A stretch of DNA of 64,000 nt from Hyphomonadaceae bacterium (lineage in GTDB: Bacteria; Pseudomonadota; Alphaproteobacteria; Caulobacterales; Aquidulcibacteraceae), in contig WRPI01000001.1 in the NCBI GenBank assembly GCA_009773395.1, positions 124,001-188,000 of the forward strand, read 5' to 3'. The notes beneath the pieces are model-generated. The model was given only the letters and a program-made list of their open reading frames with translations. It did not search any database and was not told the origin of the DNA. A program made the translations under genes and the position numbers. The stretch's first letter is position 1. Every line of letters starts with the position of its first letter. Positions 7,333 to 58,726 of the stretch are shown piece by piece.

Positions 7333-8574
7333 TTAGCTCGCCAACCTTGTGCCAATTGCCTCAATGTCATCTTCAATTGACTGAAGTTCATGCAGTGGTC
7401 TTGGTGGCCCAAATAAATTGCCTTGGGCATATCCCAAATCAAGTTCCAGTAATTCAACAACTGTGCGCTCGTTTTCAACCCTATCGGCAATCAAATCGAC
7501 GCCATAACGCGCAAATAATGATGCAACATCTTGCGCTTCAAATTCACGCGCAAGGCCAGTAACTGGGCGCACGCCTTCGCGCAATAATTGCCGCACCAAA
7601 GTATCACCCGCCACTTTAACATAGCGCACGCCCATACGTTCGAGTTTGCGTAAATCCAAATCAATGGCATCGCAACGATCTATGGAAAAACGAAAGCCCA
7701 AATCGAAAAGCCGGCCCATATTGCGTTCGGCCGTCATCGACAGACGATCAAATGCCTCACGCGGCAACTCAAAAATCATCGAACCCGCCAAATCGCGGTT
7801 TTGCTTGAGGAAATCAACAAATTGCACAAAGAAGTTTTCATCGCCCAAACTGGTTGGCGATAAATTGCAAAACATAGCAATTCGCTTGTCGCGCTTAATC
7901 ATGCGCCTTGCAAGCTGCACACATTTTAGCAATAGCATATTGTCAATTTCAGAAACCAGTCCCGAAGGCTCAGCTACCCGCAAAAACTCACCGGGCATAA
8001 TCATGCCGCCAGTAGCGTCACGAAGGCGGGTGAAGCTCTCATAAAATGCAATCCGCCTTTGCGGCAATGTTACAACTGGTTGCAAATGAAGCTCAACCCG
8101 ATTGCTTTCAATGGCCTCACGCACACTGTTCAAAAGGCCGCGCTCGCTGCGGACGGGCGCCATTGCAATTTTTGGCGCGCTTTGCGAATTTTTCAATTTT
8201 GCTTCGTTAAGCGCGACATACTTCGCAAGGCCAATTGACAGCTCTTTTAATTCATTTGTTAGCCTTTCCTCGCGCTTTTGTGCTTCATCGAGGAAAGTTT
8301 CTTTCATAATTTGCAGGCGGTCGTCCACTTCAATTTGCGCTTCTTTAAGCTGTGCAAATTGATTATCGAGGCGAATTTTCTCGGTTTGCGAAAGTTTGTT
8401 GCCTTTTGGGCTGAGCGCCAAATGGAACAAGCCACAGCTATTTGCAAACATGGCGCCAATGCACACCGAAACTGCTGCCGAATATTCATAAAGCCAATAT
8501 GAAGCCGAACCAAGACCCACGGCCAAAGCAACATAAGTAATTACCAAAATAGCGTGGACTACGACCGCAAACAA
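7333..8574 (-). CDS. tipF: TipF-like flagellar regulator with degenerate EAL domain
   Basis: The protein has 413 residues: two N-terminal membrane helices (about 5-25 and 33-53), a coiled coil (about 65-125) and a C-terminal EAL-type domain (about 150-400). The EAL signature is altered (LQPVVTLPQRRIAFYESFTRL in place of the catalytic EALxR), as in Caulobacter TipF, which binds c-di-GMP without hydrolysing it and recruits flagellar switch proteins to the new pole. Domain order and length match TipF. No other flagellar gene is in the window. A CtrA-type site 72 bp upstream fits cell-cycle control. Another membrane-anchored degenerate EAL protein is the alternative. Confidence 0.82.
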   Translation of the reverse strand: MFAVVVHAILVITYVALAVGLGSASYWLYEYSAAVSVCIGAMFANSCGLFHLALSPKGNKLSQTEKIRLDNQFAQLKEAQIEVDDRLQIMKETFLDEAQKREERLTNELKELSIGLAKYVALNEAKLKNSQSAPKIAMAPVRSERGLLNSVREAIESNRVELHLQPVVTLPQRRIAFYESFTRLRDATGGMIMPGEFLRVAEPSGLVSEIDNMLLLKCVQLARRMIKRDKRIAMFCNLSPTSLGDENFFVQFVDFLKQNRDLAGSMIFELPREAFDRLSMTAERNMGRLFDLGFRFSIDRCDAIDLDLRKLERMGVRYVKVAGDTLVRQLLREGVRPVTGLAREFEAQDVASLFARYGVDLIADRVENERTVVELLELDLGYAQGNLFGPPRPLHELQSIEDDIEAIGTRLAS

Positions 8575-32702: not shown

Positions 32703-34133
32703 TTGCGGGAAGCCAATTTGACCCAAGGCGAAGAAATAGTGAATGAAAAATTGATTGCTGAAAATGCAGAGACCCAAGAACTGGTTTCTTCGGGCGATGC
32801 TTTGGTGCAAATTGACGAAACTGCCGCGCCCGCAATTGAATCGCAAACGCCCGAACTCAAGGAAAAGCCAGCAACCCCAAGAGATGTGCCATTGCTCGAT
32901 GATATGGGTTTTGTTTCCTTTAATGATGTTGTCATCGCGAAATTGATTCCAAAGCAACCATTACTTGAGCCTAAATTGGAGCTTATTGGCGAAGAACTGA
33001 ACCAAGAAGAAACAGCGATACTAATTCATGAAAAACTCGGCGCTTGGATGGTCGGTGAACTTAGGCAAAACTTTGCGCCACTGTATCGGCTAAAAAAAGC
33101 AATTGAGTTTGAACCTCCTGTTTCGGCGATCGAAGCGCTCGAAATTGTGGTTGAACCTATCATAGAAATTGAGGACGCCAACAAATTACCCAGCGAAACA
33201 CCAGAAACCGACGGAATCGAAGCCGAAGCGGCCGAAGTGGTTGCCGACGTTACACAGACACCGCCGACAAAAACTGAAATCGCCAAACCGAAAATACACT
33301 TAAAGCCTGCCCCCAAAGCCTTAAGTGAACCCGCCAAAGAAATTGCCCGTTTGGTATTAGAAAATCATGGCGCTGTCGATCGGCAAAATATTAGCGCGAA
33401 AATCGCGGCTTTAACGCCAGAAAATCGGCGTGAACTTCGCATAAACGGCATGCGGTTTGGCCGAAATTCGGTCTATTTGCCGCTATTGTTAAAACCAAAA
33501 TCCGCTAGGCTAAGCGCCATTCTTGGCTTTTATTCCGATGGCGATATTGAAGGTAAAGCGCCATATTTGCCACCCTTTGGCGTAACTTCTTTTGAACTGC
33601 CCGAAGGTGTATCTTCGCGCGCGCTCGATTTAATTGGCTTTAAGAACATTGGTGGGCGTGGGGTTCGCCTCGATATAATTGACAGAATTATTGACGCATT
33701 ATTTGAAGCTGCCAATCTTACCAAAGGGCCTTTTGAACTTCCAACAAATATTGTTTCGTTTTTAGGAACTTCAAACGAAATCGCCGAAAATATTGTCGCG
33801 AGCCTCGGTTGGGAAAGAATTACTGATGACGAAGGCACTATAAAATGGAAAATGATGCGCATTCGGCACAAACCACCACACCGCGATTTCTCGAAAAAAC
33901 CACAAGGCAATGATGGGCAAAAAAGCACCGCGCCAAATCAATCGCAGCAAAAACCTTATGAAAAGCGAGAACGAAATTCGGATAGACCGAAATTTGATAG
34001 AAATAAATCACGCGACAATCCAAGCTCAAACGCACCACGTGATTATAGGGCTGGGCCAAAAACTATTGATGCCGACAGCCCGTTCGCAGTTTTGGCTAGT
34101 TTGAAGGCAAGCCTCGAGAACAAGAAGAACTAG
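32703..34133 (+). CDS. C-terminal part of a Suv3-type helicase, motor domains absent
   Basis: The frame has 476 codons (TTG 32703; GTG 32739 is an alternative). Residues about 205-390 (PAKEIARLVLENHGAVDRQN, NGMRFGRNSVYLPLLLKPKS, GRGVRLDIIDRI) match the C-terminal domain of the roughly 900-1000-residue alphaproteobacterial Suv3/MgpS-like helicases. No Walker A, DExH or motif VI is present; the N-terminal 200 residues are acidic and partly match the region just before that domain. The tail is basic and Asn/Arg-rich, suggesting RNA binding. In relatives the helicase precedes an S4-domain gene, fdxA and carD; fdxA and carD follow here too. Either a gene remnant or a motor-less RNA-binding protein kept under selection. 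Confidence 0.7.
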   Translation: MREANLTQGEEIVNEKLIAENAETQELVSSGDALVQIDETAAPAIESQTPELKEKPATPRDVPLLDDMGFVSFNDVVIAKLIPKQPLLEPKLELIGEELNQEETAILIHEKLGAWMVGELRQNFAPLYRLKKAIEFEPPVSAIEALEIVVEPIIEIEDANKLPSETPETDGIEAEAAEVVADVTQTPPTKTEIAKPKIHLKPAPKALSEPAKEIARLVLENHGAVDRQNISAKIAALTPENRRELRINGMRFGRNSVYLPLLLKPKSARLSAILGFYSDGDIEGKAPYLPPFGVTSFELPEGVSSRALDLIGFKNIGGRGVRLDIIDRIIDALFEAANLTKGPFELPTNIVSFLGTSNEIAENIVASLGWERITDDEGTIKWKMMRIRHKPPHRDFSKKPQGNDGQKSTAPNQSQQKPYEKRERNSDRPKFDRNKSRDNPSSNAPRDYRAGPKTIDADSPFAVLASLKASLENKKN

Positions 34134-34272
34134 AGCGATAAATACTCAAGTCGCAACGCTTAAAGTGGAATGTGCTTGGTTTAGAGGACTCAGCTTTTAC
34201 GCTTGGAACAAGCAGTAATGCTAATGCGGCACAATAGCAATAGATATTATGTTGGTATGAAGAAAGTGCTTG

Positions 34273-34450
34273 GGAATGGTCTTAAGAGCAAGTTTGCCTT
34301 AAGCCCATTCTGTTATTGTCCTTCTGCGCCCTAGGTTTTTGTCAAGCCCGCGCTTTGCGCCCGAAGGCTTTGGGGCTTGACAAAAAACTAGGGCGCACAA
34401 CAAACTTGGTGAATGGTTTTGGTGAAACAAGTTTCAGCATAAACCATTCC
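34273..34450. ncRNA. Candidate structured RNA or element between the helicase remnant and fdxA
   Basis: The three nested hairpins listed for the spacer form one unit closed by GGAATGGT/ACCATTCC at its ends. The central 25-bp arms (34325-34349 and 34373-34397) have a single mismatch. There is no T run, no target duplication and no ORF, so terminator and IS readings are weak. Strand cannot be decided. Confidence 0.35.
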
Positions 34451-34605
34451 AAAGCGCTTAATCTCTCTTTGTCATGACAAATTGTCGAGATCAAAACCGA
34501 GCTTTACCAAACCCATTTGAACATTCGATGCTATGGATTTTTCGCAATAACTTTATCGAAAAGTCTATCAATTTTTTGGCGAATTTCTTGGCATTGCAAA
34601 AACCT

Positions 34606-34630
34606 ATTACATTTTCCGACGAAATGTAAT
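34606..34630. promoter_or_regulatory. Operator-like inverted repeat upstream of fdxA
   Basis: ATTACATTT (34606-34614), seven bases, AAATGTAAT (34622-34630): a perfect 9-bp inverted repeat centred about 75 bp before the fdxA ATG. It has the size and symmetry of a dimeric regulator site. No known consensus was matched. Confidence 0.4.
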
Positions 34631-34692
34631 ATTTGCCACCACGATATTAAACCGCCAACCTCCCCGATTTTGGCAAAACTTATGGATTTCAA

Positions 34693-35034
34693 ATGACTTA
34701 TATCGTCACCGATAATTGCATTAAGTGCAAACTAATGGATTGCGTTGAAGTGTGCCCCGTAGATTGCTTTTATGAAGGCGAGAATTTTTTGGCAATTCAC
34801 CCCGATGAATGCATTGATTGCGGTGTCTGTGAGCCCGAATGCCCAGTGGACGCAATAAGGCCCGATACCGATGACGAACCCGACGGCAAGTGGCTGAAAA
34901 TAAATACTGAATATGCAAAAATTTGGCCCAATATTACGACCAAAGGAACTGCGCCAGCAGATGGCGACAAATATCGAGACGAGAAGAATAAGTTCGAAAA
35001 ATACTTCTCACCTAAACCCGGGAAAGGTGATTAA
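34693..35034 (+). CDS. fdxA: 7Fe ferredoxin FdxA
   Basis: This 113-residue soluble ferredoxin has Cys9, Cys17 and Cys50 for a [3Fe-4S] cluster and Cys21, Cys40, Cys43 and Cys46 for a [4Fe-4S] cluster, the Azotobacter FdI layout; Cys12 and Cys25 are the free ones. The C-terminal extension ([20 protein letters not shown]) covers the clusters as in the family. It is a low-potential electron carrier, partner unknown. It precedes carD, as in most alphaproteobacteria. Confidence 0.97.
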
Positions 35035-35149: not shown

Positions 35150-35306
35150 TTTGAGTTTCGTTTAACCCACCAACTGATTTCAAATTCGATTAAAAGCAAA
35201 CATATTGAAAGCGCATTTTAACTAATGCGCAGCGGACTGTTTTTTGCGAACAATTTTTGAATTTTGATTTCGCCAGTTGCTTTGATTTAGTTAGGAAATA
35301 TTGAAT

Positions 35307-35843
35307 ATGGCCGAAATTGAGATGCTTGAGGGCTTTCAAATTGACGAATTTGTTGTTTATCCAGCCCACGGAGTTGGTAAAGTTGTCGGCGTTGAAACTC
35401 AAATTGTGGTTGGCATGAACCTTGAAGTTTATGTCATTGCATTTGTGCAAGATAAAATGACATTAAGAGTTCCCACGCACAAAGCCAAAACTTGCGGATT
35501 GCGTGGTCTTTCAAGCACCCGCACCGTTAATGAGGCTTTGCGCACACTAACTGGCCGCGCACGTGTCAAACGCGCAATGTGGTCGCGTCGCGCGCAAGAA
35601 TATGAAGCCAAAATCAATTCTGGAGATCTTATTTCAATTGCCGAAGTTGTCCGCGATTTATTCCGCGCAACTGAACAACCTGAACAATCCTATTCCGAGC
35701 GCCAACTTTATGAAGCGGCCCTTGACAGAATGGCACGTGAATTTGCAGCAATTGATGAAAGCGAAAAAGATCAGGCAATTCGCAAATTAACCGATGTTTT
35801 GGCATCGCGCGGAACTTCACGCGAAACTAGCGCGAGCGTTTAG
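35307..35843 (+). CDS. carD: CarD/CdnL-family RNA polymerase-binding regulator
   Basis: This 178-residue protein has an N-terminal Tudor-like RNAP-interacting domain (GFQIDEFVVYPAHGVGKVVGVE...DKMTLRVP) and a C-terminal helical DNA-contacting domain (RARVKRAMWSRRAQEYEAKINSGD; LYEAALDRMAREFAAI). CarD/CdnL stabilises open complexes at growth and rRNA promoters and is essential or growth-limiting in several alphaproteobacteria. ATG 35307 is used because AGGAAA lies at the right distance. It follows fdxA and converges with the nuclease gene (4-bp overlap). Confidence 0.97.
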   Translation: MAEIEMLEGFQIDEFVVYPAHGVGKVVGVETQIVVGMNLEVYVIAFVQDKMTLRVPTHKAKTCGLRGLSSTRTVNEALRTLTGRARVKRAMWSRRAQEYEAKINSGDLISIAEVVRDLFRATEQPEQSYSERQLYEAALDRMAREFAAIDESEKDQAIRKLTDVLASRGTSRETSASV

Positions 35844-55990: not shown

Positions 55991-58726
55991 ATGTTCAAAG
56001 TTATCAAGAAGATTTTCGGTAGTTCCAATGATCGCCGCGTGAAAAGCCTTATGGATCGCGTAATCAAGAAAATTAATCCGCTCGAAGAAGCAATTAAGCA
56101 ATTGTCGGACGAGCAAATGGCAGCGAAAACCATTGAATTTAGGGAAAAATTGGCAAGTGGCGCCGAGCTTGATGACATTTTAGACGAAGCATTTGCCTTG
56201 GTGCGCGAAGCGGCATTGCGGACTTTGGGCCAACGCCATTATGATGTGCAATTGGTGGGTGGTATGGTGCTAAACACTGGTGCAATTTCCGAAATGCGCA
56301 CTGGTGAAGGCAAGACCCTTGTTGCGACCGCTCCCGTCTATTTGAACGCGCTTTTGGGCAATGGTGTTCATGTTGTGACGGTTAATGATTATTTGGCACG
56401 CCGTGACGCCGCTTGGATGGGCAAGATCTATAGTTTCTTGGGGCTTACAACTGGCGTAATTGTGCCAGGATTGTCCGACGCCGAACGCCGCGAGGCTTAT
56501 GCTTGCGATATTACTTATGCCACAAATAACGAACTTGGTTTTGATTATTTGCGCGATAATTTGAAATATCGCCTTGAAGACATGTCACAACGCGGTCATG
56601 CTTTTGCGATTGTCGATGAAGTTGACAGTATTTTGATTGATGAAGCACGCACGCCATTGATTATTTCGGGCCCAACCGATGATAAATCCGAATTCTATCG
56701 CAAAGTTGATGCGCTAATTTATCTGCTCGACAAAGATGATTATGAGCATGATGAAAAGCAAAAATCGGCCGTTTATACCGAAAAAGGCTCAGAACATATC
56801 GAACAATTATTGCAAGAACATGGCATTTTGGTCGGTTCTTTGTATGAAGTTATCAATACGTCAATTGTTCACCATGCCAATCAGGCATTGCGGGCGCATG
56901 TGCTGTTTCATCGCGATAAAGACTATATCGTAAAAGACGAAGAAGTGATTTTAATTGACGAATTCACGGGACGAATGTTGACTGGTAGGAGGCTTTCCGA
57001 AGGTTTGCACCAGGCAATCGAAGCCAAGGAAAATGTAAAAGTAGAGCCTGAAAACCAAACTTTGGCGTCAATTACTTTCCAAAATTATTTCAGGCTTTAC
57101 AAAAAGCTCGCGGGTATGACCGGCACTGCACAGACCGAAGCTGCCGAATTTGAAAGCATTTATAATCTTCAAGTCGTGGAAATCCCAACTAACCGCCCAG
57201 TATGCCGTATTGATGACAATGATTTGGTGTTCCAAACCGAAGAAGGCAAGCATCGTGCAATTATGCAAGATATCATTGAAAGCCACCAAAAAGGCCAGCC
57301 AGTTTTGGTGGGCACGGCATCAATTGAAAAATCGGAAGTCATTTCTGGGCTTCTAAAAGCGCAAAATATTCCGCATAATGTTCTTAATGCGCGCTACCAT
57401 GAGCAAGAAGCCGAAATTATCGCCGACGCGGGCGTTACGGGGGCTGTTACAATCGCAACCAATATGGCGGGTCGTGGAACAGATATTCAATTGGGTGGAA
57501 ATTTTGAAATGCGCTGTGAAAAATCGCGGCGCGAGCGTGAAGCTGCTTGGGGCCGTTCAATGACCGCCGAAGAAGTGGCGTCCATGAACGCGGATATTGC
57601 AAAAACTATTGATGCCGACAAAGAAAAAGTTCTTGAACTTGGCGGGCTTTATGTTTTGGGCACCGAGCGCCATGAAAGCCGCCGCATTGATAATCAGCTT
57701 CGCGGCAGAACTGGCCGTCAAGGCGACCCTGGGCGGTCGCGTTTTTACCTTTCGACTGACGATGATTTATTGCGCATTTTTGGCGGCGATCGCTTCAAAA
57801 ATATCATGACTGCCATGAGCCTTCCAGAAGACGAACCAATCGAAGAACGCATGATGAATAAAGCGATGGAAATCGCACAAAAACGGGTTGAAGCTCGCAA
57901 TTTTGATATTCGCAAAAACCTTATCAAATATGACGATGTCATCAATGACCAACGCAAACAAATTTTTGAAGAGCGCAAGGAATTTATGCGCGATAGCGAT
58001 GTTGAAGAAACCATCGAATTTATGCGCGAAACCGTAATTGACGATATGTGCGAACGCTTTATGCCCGAAAAATTGCTGCCCGAACAATGGGACGCCGACG
58101 GCCTAAAAGAAGCGGTGAAATCTTCATTGGGCATTGATATGCCGATAGATGAAATGATCGCCGAAGATGGTGCAGATGATAAGGACATCAAATTACGAAT
58201 TGAACAAGCTGCCGACGCACATTGGGCCAGCAAAACCGCAATTTTGGGGCCCGAGCAATCGCGCGACCTTGAAAAGCAAATTTTGCTGCAAACCATTGAC
58301 ACGAAATGGCGAGAGCATTTGGCAGTTGTTGATCATTTACGCTCGGTAATTCATCTTCGGGGCTATGCACAGCGCGATCCATTGATTGAGTATAAGACCG
58401 AAGGCTTCACATTATTTGAAAATATGCGCCGTGATTTGCGCACCGATGTGGTGGCAATACTTCAAAATATTGAATTAGTAATGCAACCACCGCCCGAAGA
58501 TGCGGGTCGCGCTATATTTAATGCGGGCCAAGTCGGTGGTGGGGCTGGGTTTTTGGCATCGCACCCTAACCCTGAAACTGGGCTTGATGAAATGGGTGAC
58601 ATGCGCGATGATTTGGTGCATTCACCACTTGGCCCAATGCCACGGGCTTGGCTTGGAACCAATCGCAATGCGCCTTGCCCGTGCATGTCTGGCAAGAAAT
58701 ACAAACACTGCCACGGCGCGATATAA
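55991..58726 (+). CDS. secA: Protein translocase ATPase SecA
   Basis: This 911-residue motor drives Sec-dependent export. Motor domain I shows [12 protein letters not shown] (Walker A, about 98-108) and [16 protein letters not shown]; domain II has [14 protein letters not shown] and [13 protein letters not shown]. The C-terminal zinc tail [14 protein letters not shown] binds SecB. The true start is ATG 55991 ([10 protein letters not shown]), 16 codons into the open frame. A GGCGC/GCGCC hairpin lies just before, at about 55952-55966. It converges with a methyltransferase gene. Confidence 0.98.

Follow-up and report, generated by a model that had tools for sequence, protein, structure and literature searches.

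Helicases are usually seen as motors with accessory domains. The closest described relatives of the gene reported here are the Suv3-like helicases of Alphaproteobacteria, which share their motor with the mitochondrial RNA-decay helicase and to which MgpS of Brucella melitensis (BMEI0275) and Sinorhizobium meliloti (SMc03877) presumably belongs. MgpS figures among the genes reported for attenuated mutants of Brucella melitensis (PMC4070974) and, in Sinorhizobium meliloti, among the helicase genes upregulated by acid stress (PMC4941405). A literature search, mostly outside subscription journals, returned no motorless Suv3-type protein. The window, i.e. the whole stretch of 64,000 nucleotides that was analysed, is part of a 2.63 Mb genome (99.86% complete) of the genus Pseudaquidulcibacter, which is placed in Aquidulcibacteraceae, order Caulobacterales (PMC12700997 and PMC13109427). 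Here the motor of such a helicase appears to have gone and the accessory part to have stayed, repeatedly and under constraint.

The gene and its surroundings

An open frame of 476 codons starting with TTG, which an earlier note on this DNA had described as keeping the C-terminal domain of a Suv3-like helicase without its ATPase motifs, is present at 32703-34133 and carries the basic tail ascribed to it. The gene, its parts and its neighbours are as follows (positions in the window):

32718-34133, + strand: motorless helicase-tail gene encoding 471 aa (another possible TTG start at 32703; stop at 34133)
32718-32879, + strand: N-terminal acidic stretch, residues 1-54, replacing the motor part of ~550 residues
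32880-33116, + strand: block A, residues 55-133, corresponding to full-length helicase residues ~553-629 (pLDDT about 70-95)
33117-33314, + strand: ~65-residue acidic insert separating block A from block B
33315-33842, + strand: block B, residues 200-374/375, corresponding to full-length helicase residues ~629-799
33843-34061, + strand: basic low-confidence tail, net charge about +12
34062-34130, + strand: C-terminal motif DADSPFAVLASLK, predicted helix 455-470
34134-34692, no strand: noncoding gap of 559 bp at the position of the relatives' Hsp15-like S4 gene
34322-34349 and 34373-34400, no strand: arms of an inverted repeat in the gap (28-nt arms, 93% complementary, 23-nt loop)
34693-35034, + strand: fdxA (ferredoxin), conserved neighbour
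35301-35843, + strand: carD-type regulator gene, conserved neighbour

TTG as the start codon was borne out, a TTG start being possible in all five genus genes, and only its position shifted: the true start is probably TTG 32718 (471 aa), in register with the TTG starts of four congeners, and not TTG 32703, where the 476-codon frame begins. Of the two, TTG 32703 has the better upstream GAGGAA. In the structural model, pLDDT is mostly >90 at residues 60-130 and 200-380, followed by the C-terminal helix at 455-470; block B, likewise mostly >90, contains a winged-helix-like part at about 270-381. Residues 1-54 are poorly conserved, with a net charge of about -9 and pLDDT mostly <50. The retained part consists of two blocks split by the acidic insert, together with the basic tail and the conserved C-terminal motif; blocks A and B are slightly acidic overall, and the tail is the only clearly basic part.

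Homologues were searched for in the window's own genome and those of 60 relatives, and 58 of these 61 gave a match. The stop-to-stop frame spans 428-477 codons in the five genus genomes and ~750-1160 in the others listed, frames cut by contig ends apart. Against L042, a relative's full-length helicase of 1042 aa (Suv3 DEXQ domain 12-141, Helicase_C 165-269), block B aligned with residues 629-799 at 49% identity (E 1.7e-44), and block A was also matched (556-629 in this comparison, ~553-629 overall); that the protein is related to the C-terminal part of the helicase is clear. As the match is confined to ~553-799 of L042, the window protein lacks the motor as well as the stretch that follows it (~270-552). 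Blocks A and B are contiguous in the relatives and parted by the acidic insert in all five sampled genus members, in four of which it is shorter than in the window protein; it is absent from the aligned full-length relatives and from the protein of G433, a member of a second alphaproteobacterial order. An insert at this place suggests that blocks A and B can be set apart without harm.

A Pfam search of the window protein gave no family at E<=1, with the DEXQ-box ATPase domain (PF22527) and Helicase_C both absent, and an NCBIfam search no telling match (best E 0.13); the C-terminal module belongs to no family of either collection. A detached motor elsewhere in the genome was considered and rejected: the PF22527 profile located no Suv3 motor in any of the five genus genomes, the window's own included, and the full-length helicase as query recovered only the module from these five, barring weak RecA2 similarity to other helicase-like frames of ~531-540 aa in three of them (E 3e-4 to 8e-4). 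In the window genome, weak Helicase_C similarity lies in a frame of ~531 aa elsewhere, and no full helicase was found at another place. Taken together, the comparisons show the gene to be the in-place orthologue of the alphaproteobacterial Suv3-like (MgpS-type) helicase, with both RecA domains and the stretch following them lost.

Across the order Caulobacterales, PF22527 is present in 286 of 299 genomes. The 13 without it are the five of the genus, G172, two whose module breaks off at a contig end (G259, G288), and five that lack module and motor alike (G026, G138, G252, G291, G249); since G026 and G138 are 99% complete, not every member of the order can depend on the gene.

The full-length relatives examined mostly carry an Hsp15-like S4 gene that overlaps the helicase gene or comes after it (e.g. 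L042:10319-10699), in the order helicase-S4-fdxA-carD. In the window fdxA and carD are in place, as the earlier note had stated, and the S4 gene that it had reported absent is found neither at the locus nor elsewhere in the genome. Relocation was rejected as well. The window genome has five S4 domains, all in frames (209-398 aa) that exceed the small S4 gene in length. Among the 41 genomes searched for this gene, four of the five genus genomes gave no match and the fifth (G003) one of E 0.339 only; in g17, where the full helicase is present (loci L051, L068), G039 gave E 0.231 and G047 none. Loss of S4 was rejected as a general cause of motor loss: G172 lacks the motor and keeps S4, whereas G039 and G047 keep the motor without a convincing S4, so that the two losses are separable.

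The gap left at the S4 position, first described as noncoding and hairpin-rich, is noncoding and holds the inverted repeat listed above. Neither an Rfam match nor an S4 remnant (best tblastn E 0.28) was found in it. It measures 559 bp, versus 132-133 bp in two congeners, and such a long gap is peculiar to the window's species among those compared. The 13-base core of the inverted repeat has one further partial match in the window, at 57093. The carD gene lies 3' of the motorless gene in the window and in two congeners. In G002 (L038) and G004 (L037), the downstream gene matches window 7333-8574 (- strand) and is not fdxA or carD, i.e. the gene order is broken within the genus. On the 5' side, a gene for a secreted-looking protein of 145-188 aa stands between a uridine-kinase-like gene and the motorless gene in L036 (G001), L037 (G004), L038 (G002) and L039 (G003); the window has a gap of about 119 bp there.

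Recurrence and conservation of the motorless state

Beyond what the earlier note had claimed, the motorless state is shared by all sampled genomes of the genus, recurrent in Alphaproteobacteria and always accompanied by the C-terminal motif. It was seen in 5/5 sampled Pseudaquidulcibacter genomes and, in another family of the order, in G172, where a module of ~552 aa without motor lies directly before S4-fdxA-carD and is sister to the full-length protein of G094. A class-wide sample of 142 genomes, 89 of them with the module, contained a frame of 404 aa in G433. In the order of G433, the module was found in 85 of 114 genomes, 70 of which are motorless (frames of 186-628 aa, few at contig ends; the genomes are mostly drafts and some matches lie near contig ends) and 15 full-length (frames of 851-1130 aa). 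Those 15 are the sole genomes of this second order with a confident motor (E<=1e-9); five more PF22527 matches are weak (E 3e-7 to 1e-3) and at other places, and no motor was detected in the stretches around the motorless genes. Of eight second-order frames inspected, six have an ATG no more than two residues away from the module's first matched residue, which points to a cut at much the same boundary. No S4, fdxA or carD was found near the second-order genes examined (37 motorless, 13 full-length), apart from one weak S4 match at L163. Short frames in G273, G283, G264, G259 and G288 were rejected as cases of motor loss, as they reach the contig end, and G411 (L100, G411:C12) was rejected because a motor frame of 193 aa directly upstream of its 675-aa frame was read as the product of a frameshift.

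For phylogenetic analysis, 112 module loci were available, of which L048 and L064 were omitted because their frames reach the contig end. A quick tree of the remaining 110 rows (43 motorless, 67 full-length) required 12 state changes, at least seven of them forced by supported branches. A careful tree of 58 rows (34 motorless, 24 full-length), hand-picked from the 110 after the first tree had been seen in order to thin near-copies, required 11, at least six of them forced (bootstrap range 10-12). A single origin was recovered in none of 200 bootstrap trees of the 58 rows, in a bootstrap that had not fully settled. AU tests rejected one clade for all motorless rows of the 58 (p 1.2e-109) and likewise one clade for the second order's motorless rows (p 4e-51). 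In the careful tree, the genus protein is joined to full-length proteins of its own family (100/100) and G172 to its full-length congener G094 (100/100), and the second order stands as a group by itself. Counts of state changes alone cannot separate loss from regain, and loss is preferred as simpler, since a regained motor would have to be an orthologous one fused on again. On these trees the same module is shown to have lost its motor several times independently.

Conservation was assessed in an alignment of 102 rows (43 motorless, 59 full-length; eight full-length rows were left out). The comparison covered 21 module positions, the majority of them invariant or almost invariant in either set, with R237, K259, R317, D319 and R323 (window numbering) unchanged in 43/43 motorless proteins, all of which keep the two-block folded module. 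The motif SPFAxLxxLK is present as a strict pattern in 43/43 motorless and 52/65 full-length proteins and as a loose pattern in 64/65 of the latter, two further full-length rows being cut short at the 3' end. Sharing of the motif with other proteins of the window genome was tried as a clue to a partner and rejected: of seven sites matching the DNA pattern, only the one in this gene lies near the end of a long frame.

The earlier note had proposed that the protein may still work, and the substitution pattern agrees. In two close genus pairs, dN/dS over the gene is 0.072 and 0.089, falling to 0.006 and 0.039 in block B and to 0 in the last ~20 codons, with the N-terminal stretch loose (0.44 and 0.60); comparisons with the window's own copy were left out owing to dS >2, near saturation. 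Over the module, six motorless-motorless pairs gave 0.035-0.091 versus 0.030-0.107 in three full-length pairs, with dS saturated in several pairs and no value obtained from a fourth full-length pair. The frame is open in all five genus genomes, and identity between lineages is 41-49%. The motorless gene is thereby shown to be under strong purifying selection in its genus.

Possible roles of the module

Models of the window protein and of the G433 protein (pLDDT about 97 for residues 1-255) were compared with known structures. Foldseek gave nothing convincing for either (all E >0.1). In a second fold search, SelB SECIS-binding winged helices ranked first for both, with Z 5.6-7.6, i.e. <8 and below the level of a telling fold match or common descent; SelB aligned with the window model over 98 residues at 3.5 A (Z 7.6) and with the G433 model over 89 residues at 4.0 A (Z 6.2).

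On balance we favour, by a little, a stand-alone motorless C-terminal module of a Suv3-like helicase that would act as an ATP-independent adaptor binding RNA or the ribosome, binding being judged from predicted features. Structured RNA would be gripped by the basic tail and by the winged-helix-like module, which has invariant Arg/Lys residues, and a partner protein would be contacted through the C-terminal helix; the motor of the full-length relatives would then be accessory to the adaptor. The pattern suggests that the tail, not the motor, performs the job these bacteria cannot spare. More broadly, the chances appear evenly divided that the module represents an undescribed, self-sufficient alphaproteobacterial family of RNA- or ribosome-binding proteins, in which the Suv3 motor is an optional part shed at least six times and the C-terminal helix marks a nearly universal partner.

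Less probable, though it deserves serious attention, is a role as targeting or activating subunit, with a DEAD-box helicase or ribonuclease recruited via the C-terminal helix to give the motor in trans. A motif near-universal in full-length and motorless forms is what would be expected of a docking peptide, other helicase-like frames of ~531-540 aa with weak Suv3 RecA2 similarity occur in three of five genus genomes, and partnerships between helicases and ribonucleases are known (review PMC5818665). However, no candidate partner is specifically tied to the gene, which in the second order stands away from S4, fdxA and carD. That the winged-helix-like module is instead a DNA-binding or transcription factor unit, tied to transcription like its neighbour carD, we regard as improbable: many entries following SelB in the fold list are DNA-binding winged-helix regulators and carD does follow in the window and two congeners, but the RNA-binding domains of SelB come first for both models, and the link to carD is broken in G002, G004 and the second order.

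Gene exchange is common between Alphaproteobacteria, and a motorless gene that arose once and spread by horizontal transfer would inflate the count of independent losses; this is very improbable, as motorless proteins group with their own full-length kin (100/100) and a single clade is rejected. Hardly credible, too, is that the helicase gene is dead and its decaying remains have merely not yet disappeared: the motor, the middle region and the S4 gene are gone, the start is TTG, and G026 and G138 of the same order do without the gene, but decay predicts broken frames and dN/dS near 1, whereas open frames (5/5), dN/dS of 0.07-0.09 (0.006-0.039 in block B), residues and motif kept in 43/43 proteins and the repetition of the motorless state elsewhere rule out a pseudogene at the level of sequence.

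The lineages that differ in the motor constitute a natural experiment on what the motor contributes, and through the near-universal C-terminal motif the partner of this widespread, little-studied helicase can be sought.

Comparison with known systems

The closest likeness is to the Suv3-like (MgpS-type) helicase, with which the window protein has in common the orthologous C-terminal module, the place before fdxA-carD and the C-terminal motif; it differs from it in lacking the DEXQ-box motor, Helicase_C and the region ~270-552, and in the added acidic insert. Mitochondrial Suv3/SUPV3L1 (3rc3, 6f4a) is related to the full-length bacterial helicase over the motor only (residues 13-301); as the retained module lies outside the aligned part, mitochondrial Suv3 and the motorless protein have nothing detectable in common in these searches. 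The S4 gene beside the full-length helicase L042 matches the model of Hsp15, a ribosome-associated S4 RNA-binding protein, with 46.6 bits against a cut-off of 148, and has no counterpart in the window genome. The best structural neighbours are the C-terminal winged helices of SelB, which bind SECIS mRNA (2pjp, 2ply, 4zu9; ~90-99 residues aligned); identity is 5-15% and the window protein has no GTPase, and the likeness may be one of the common winged-helix arrangement only.
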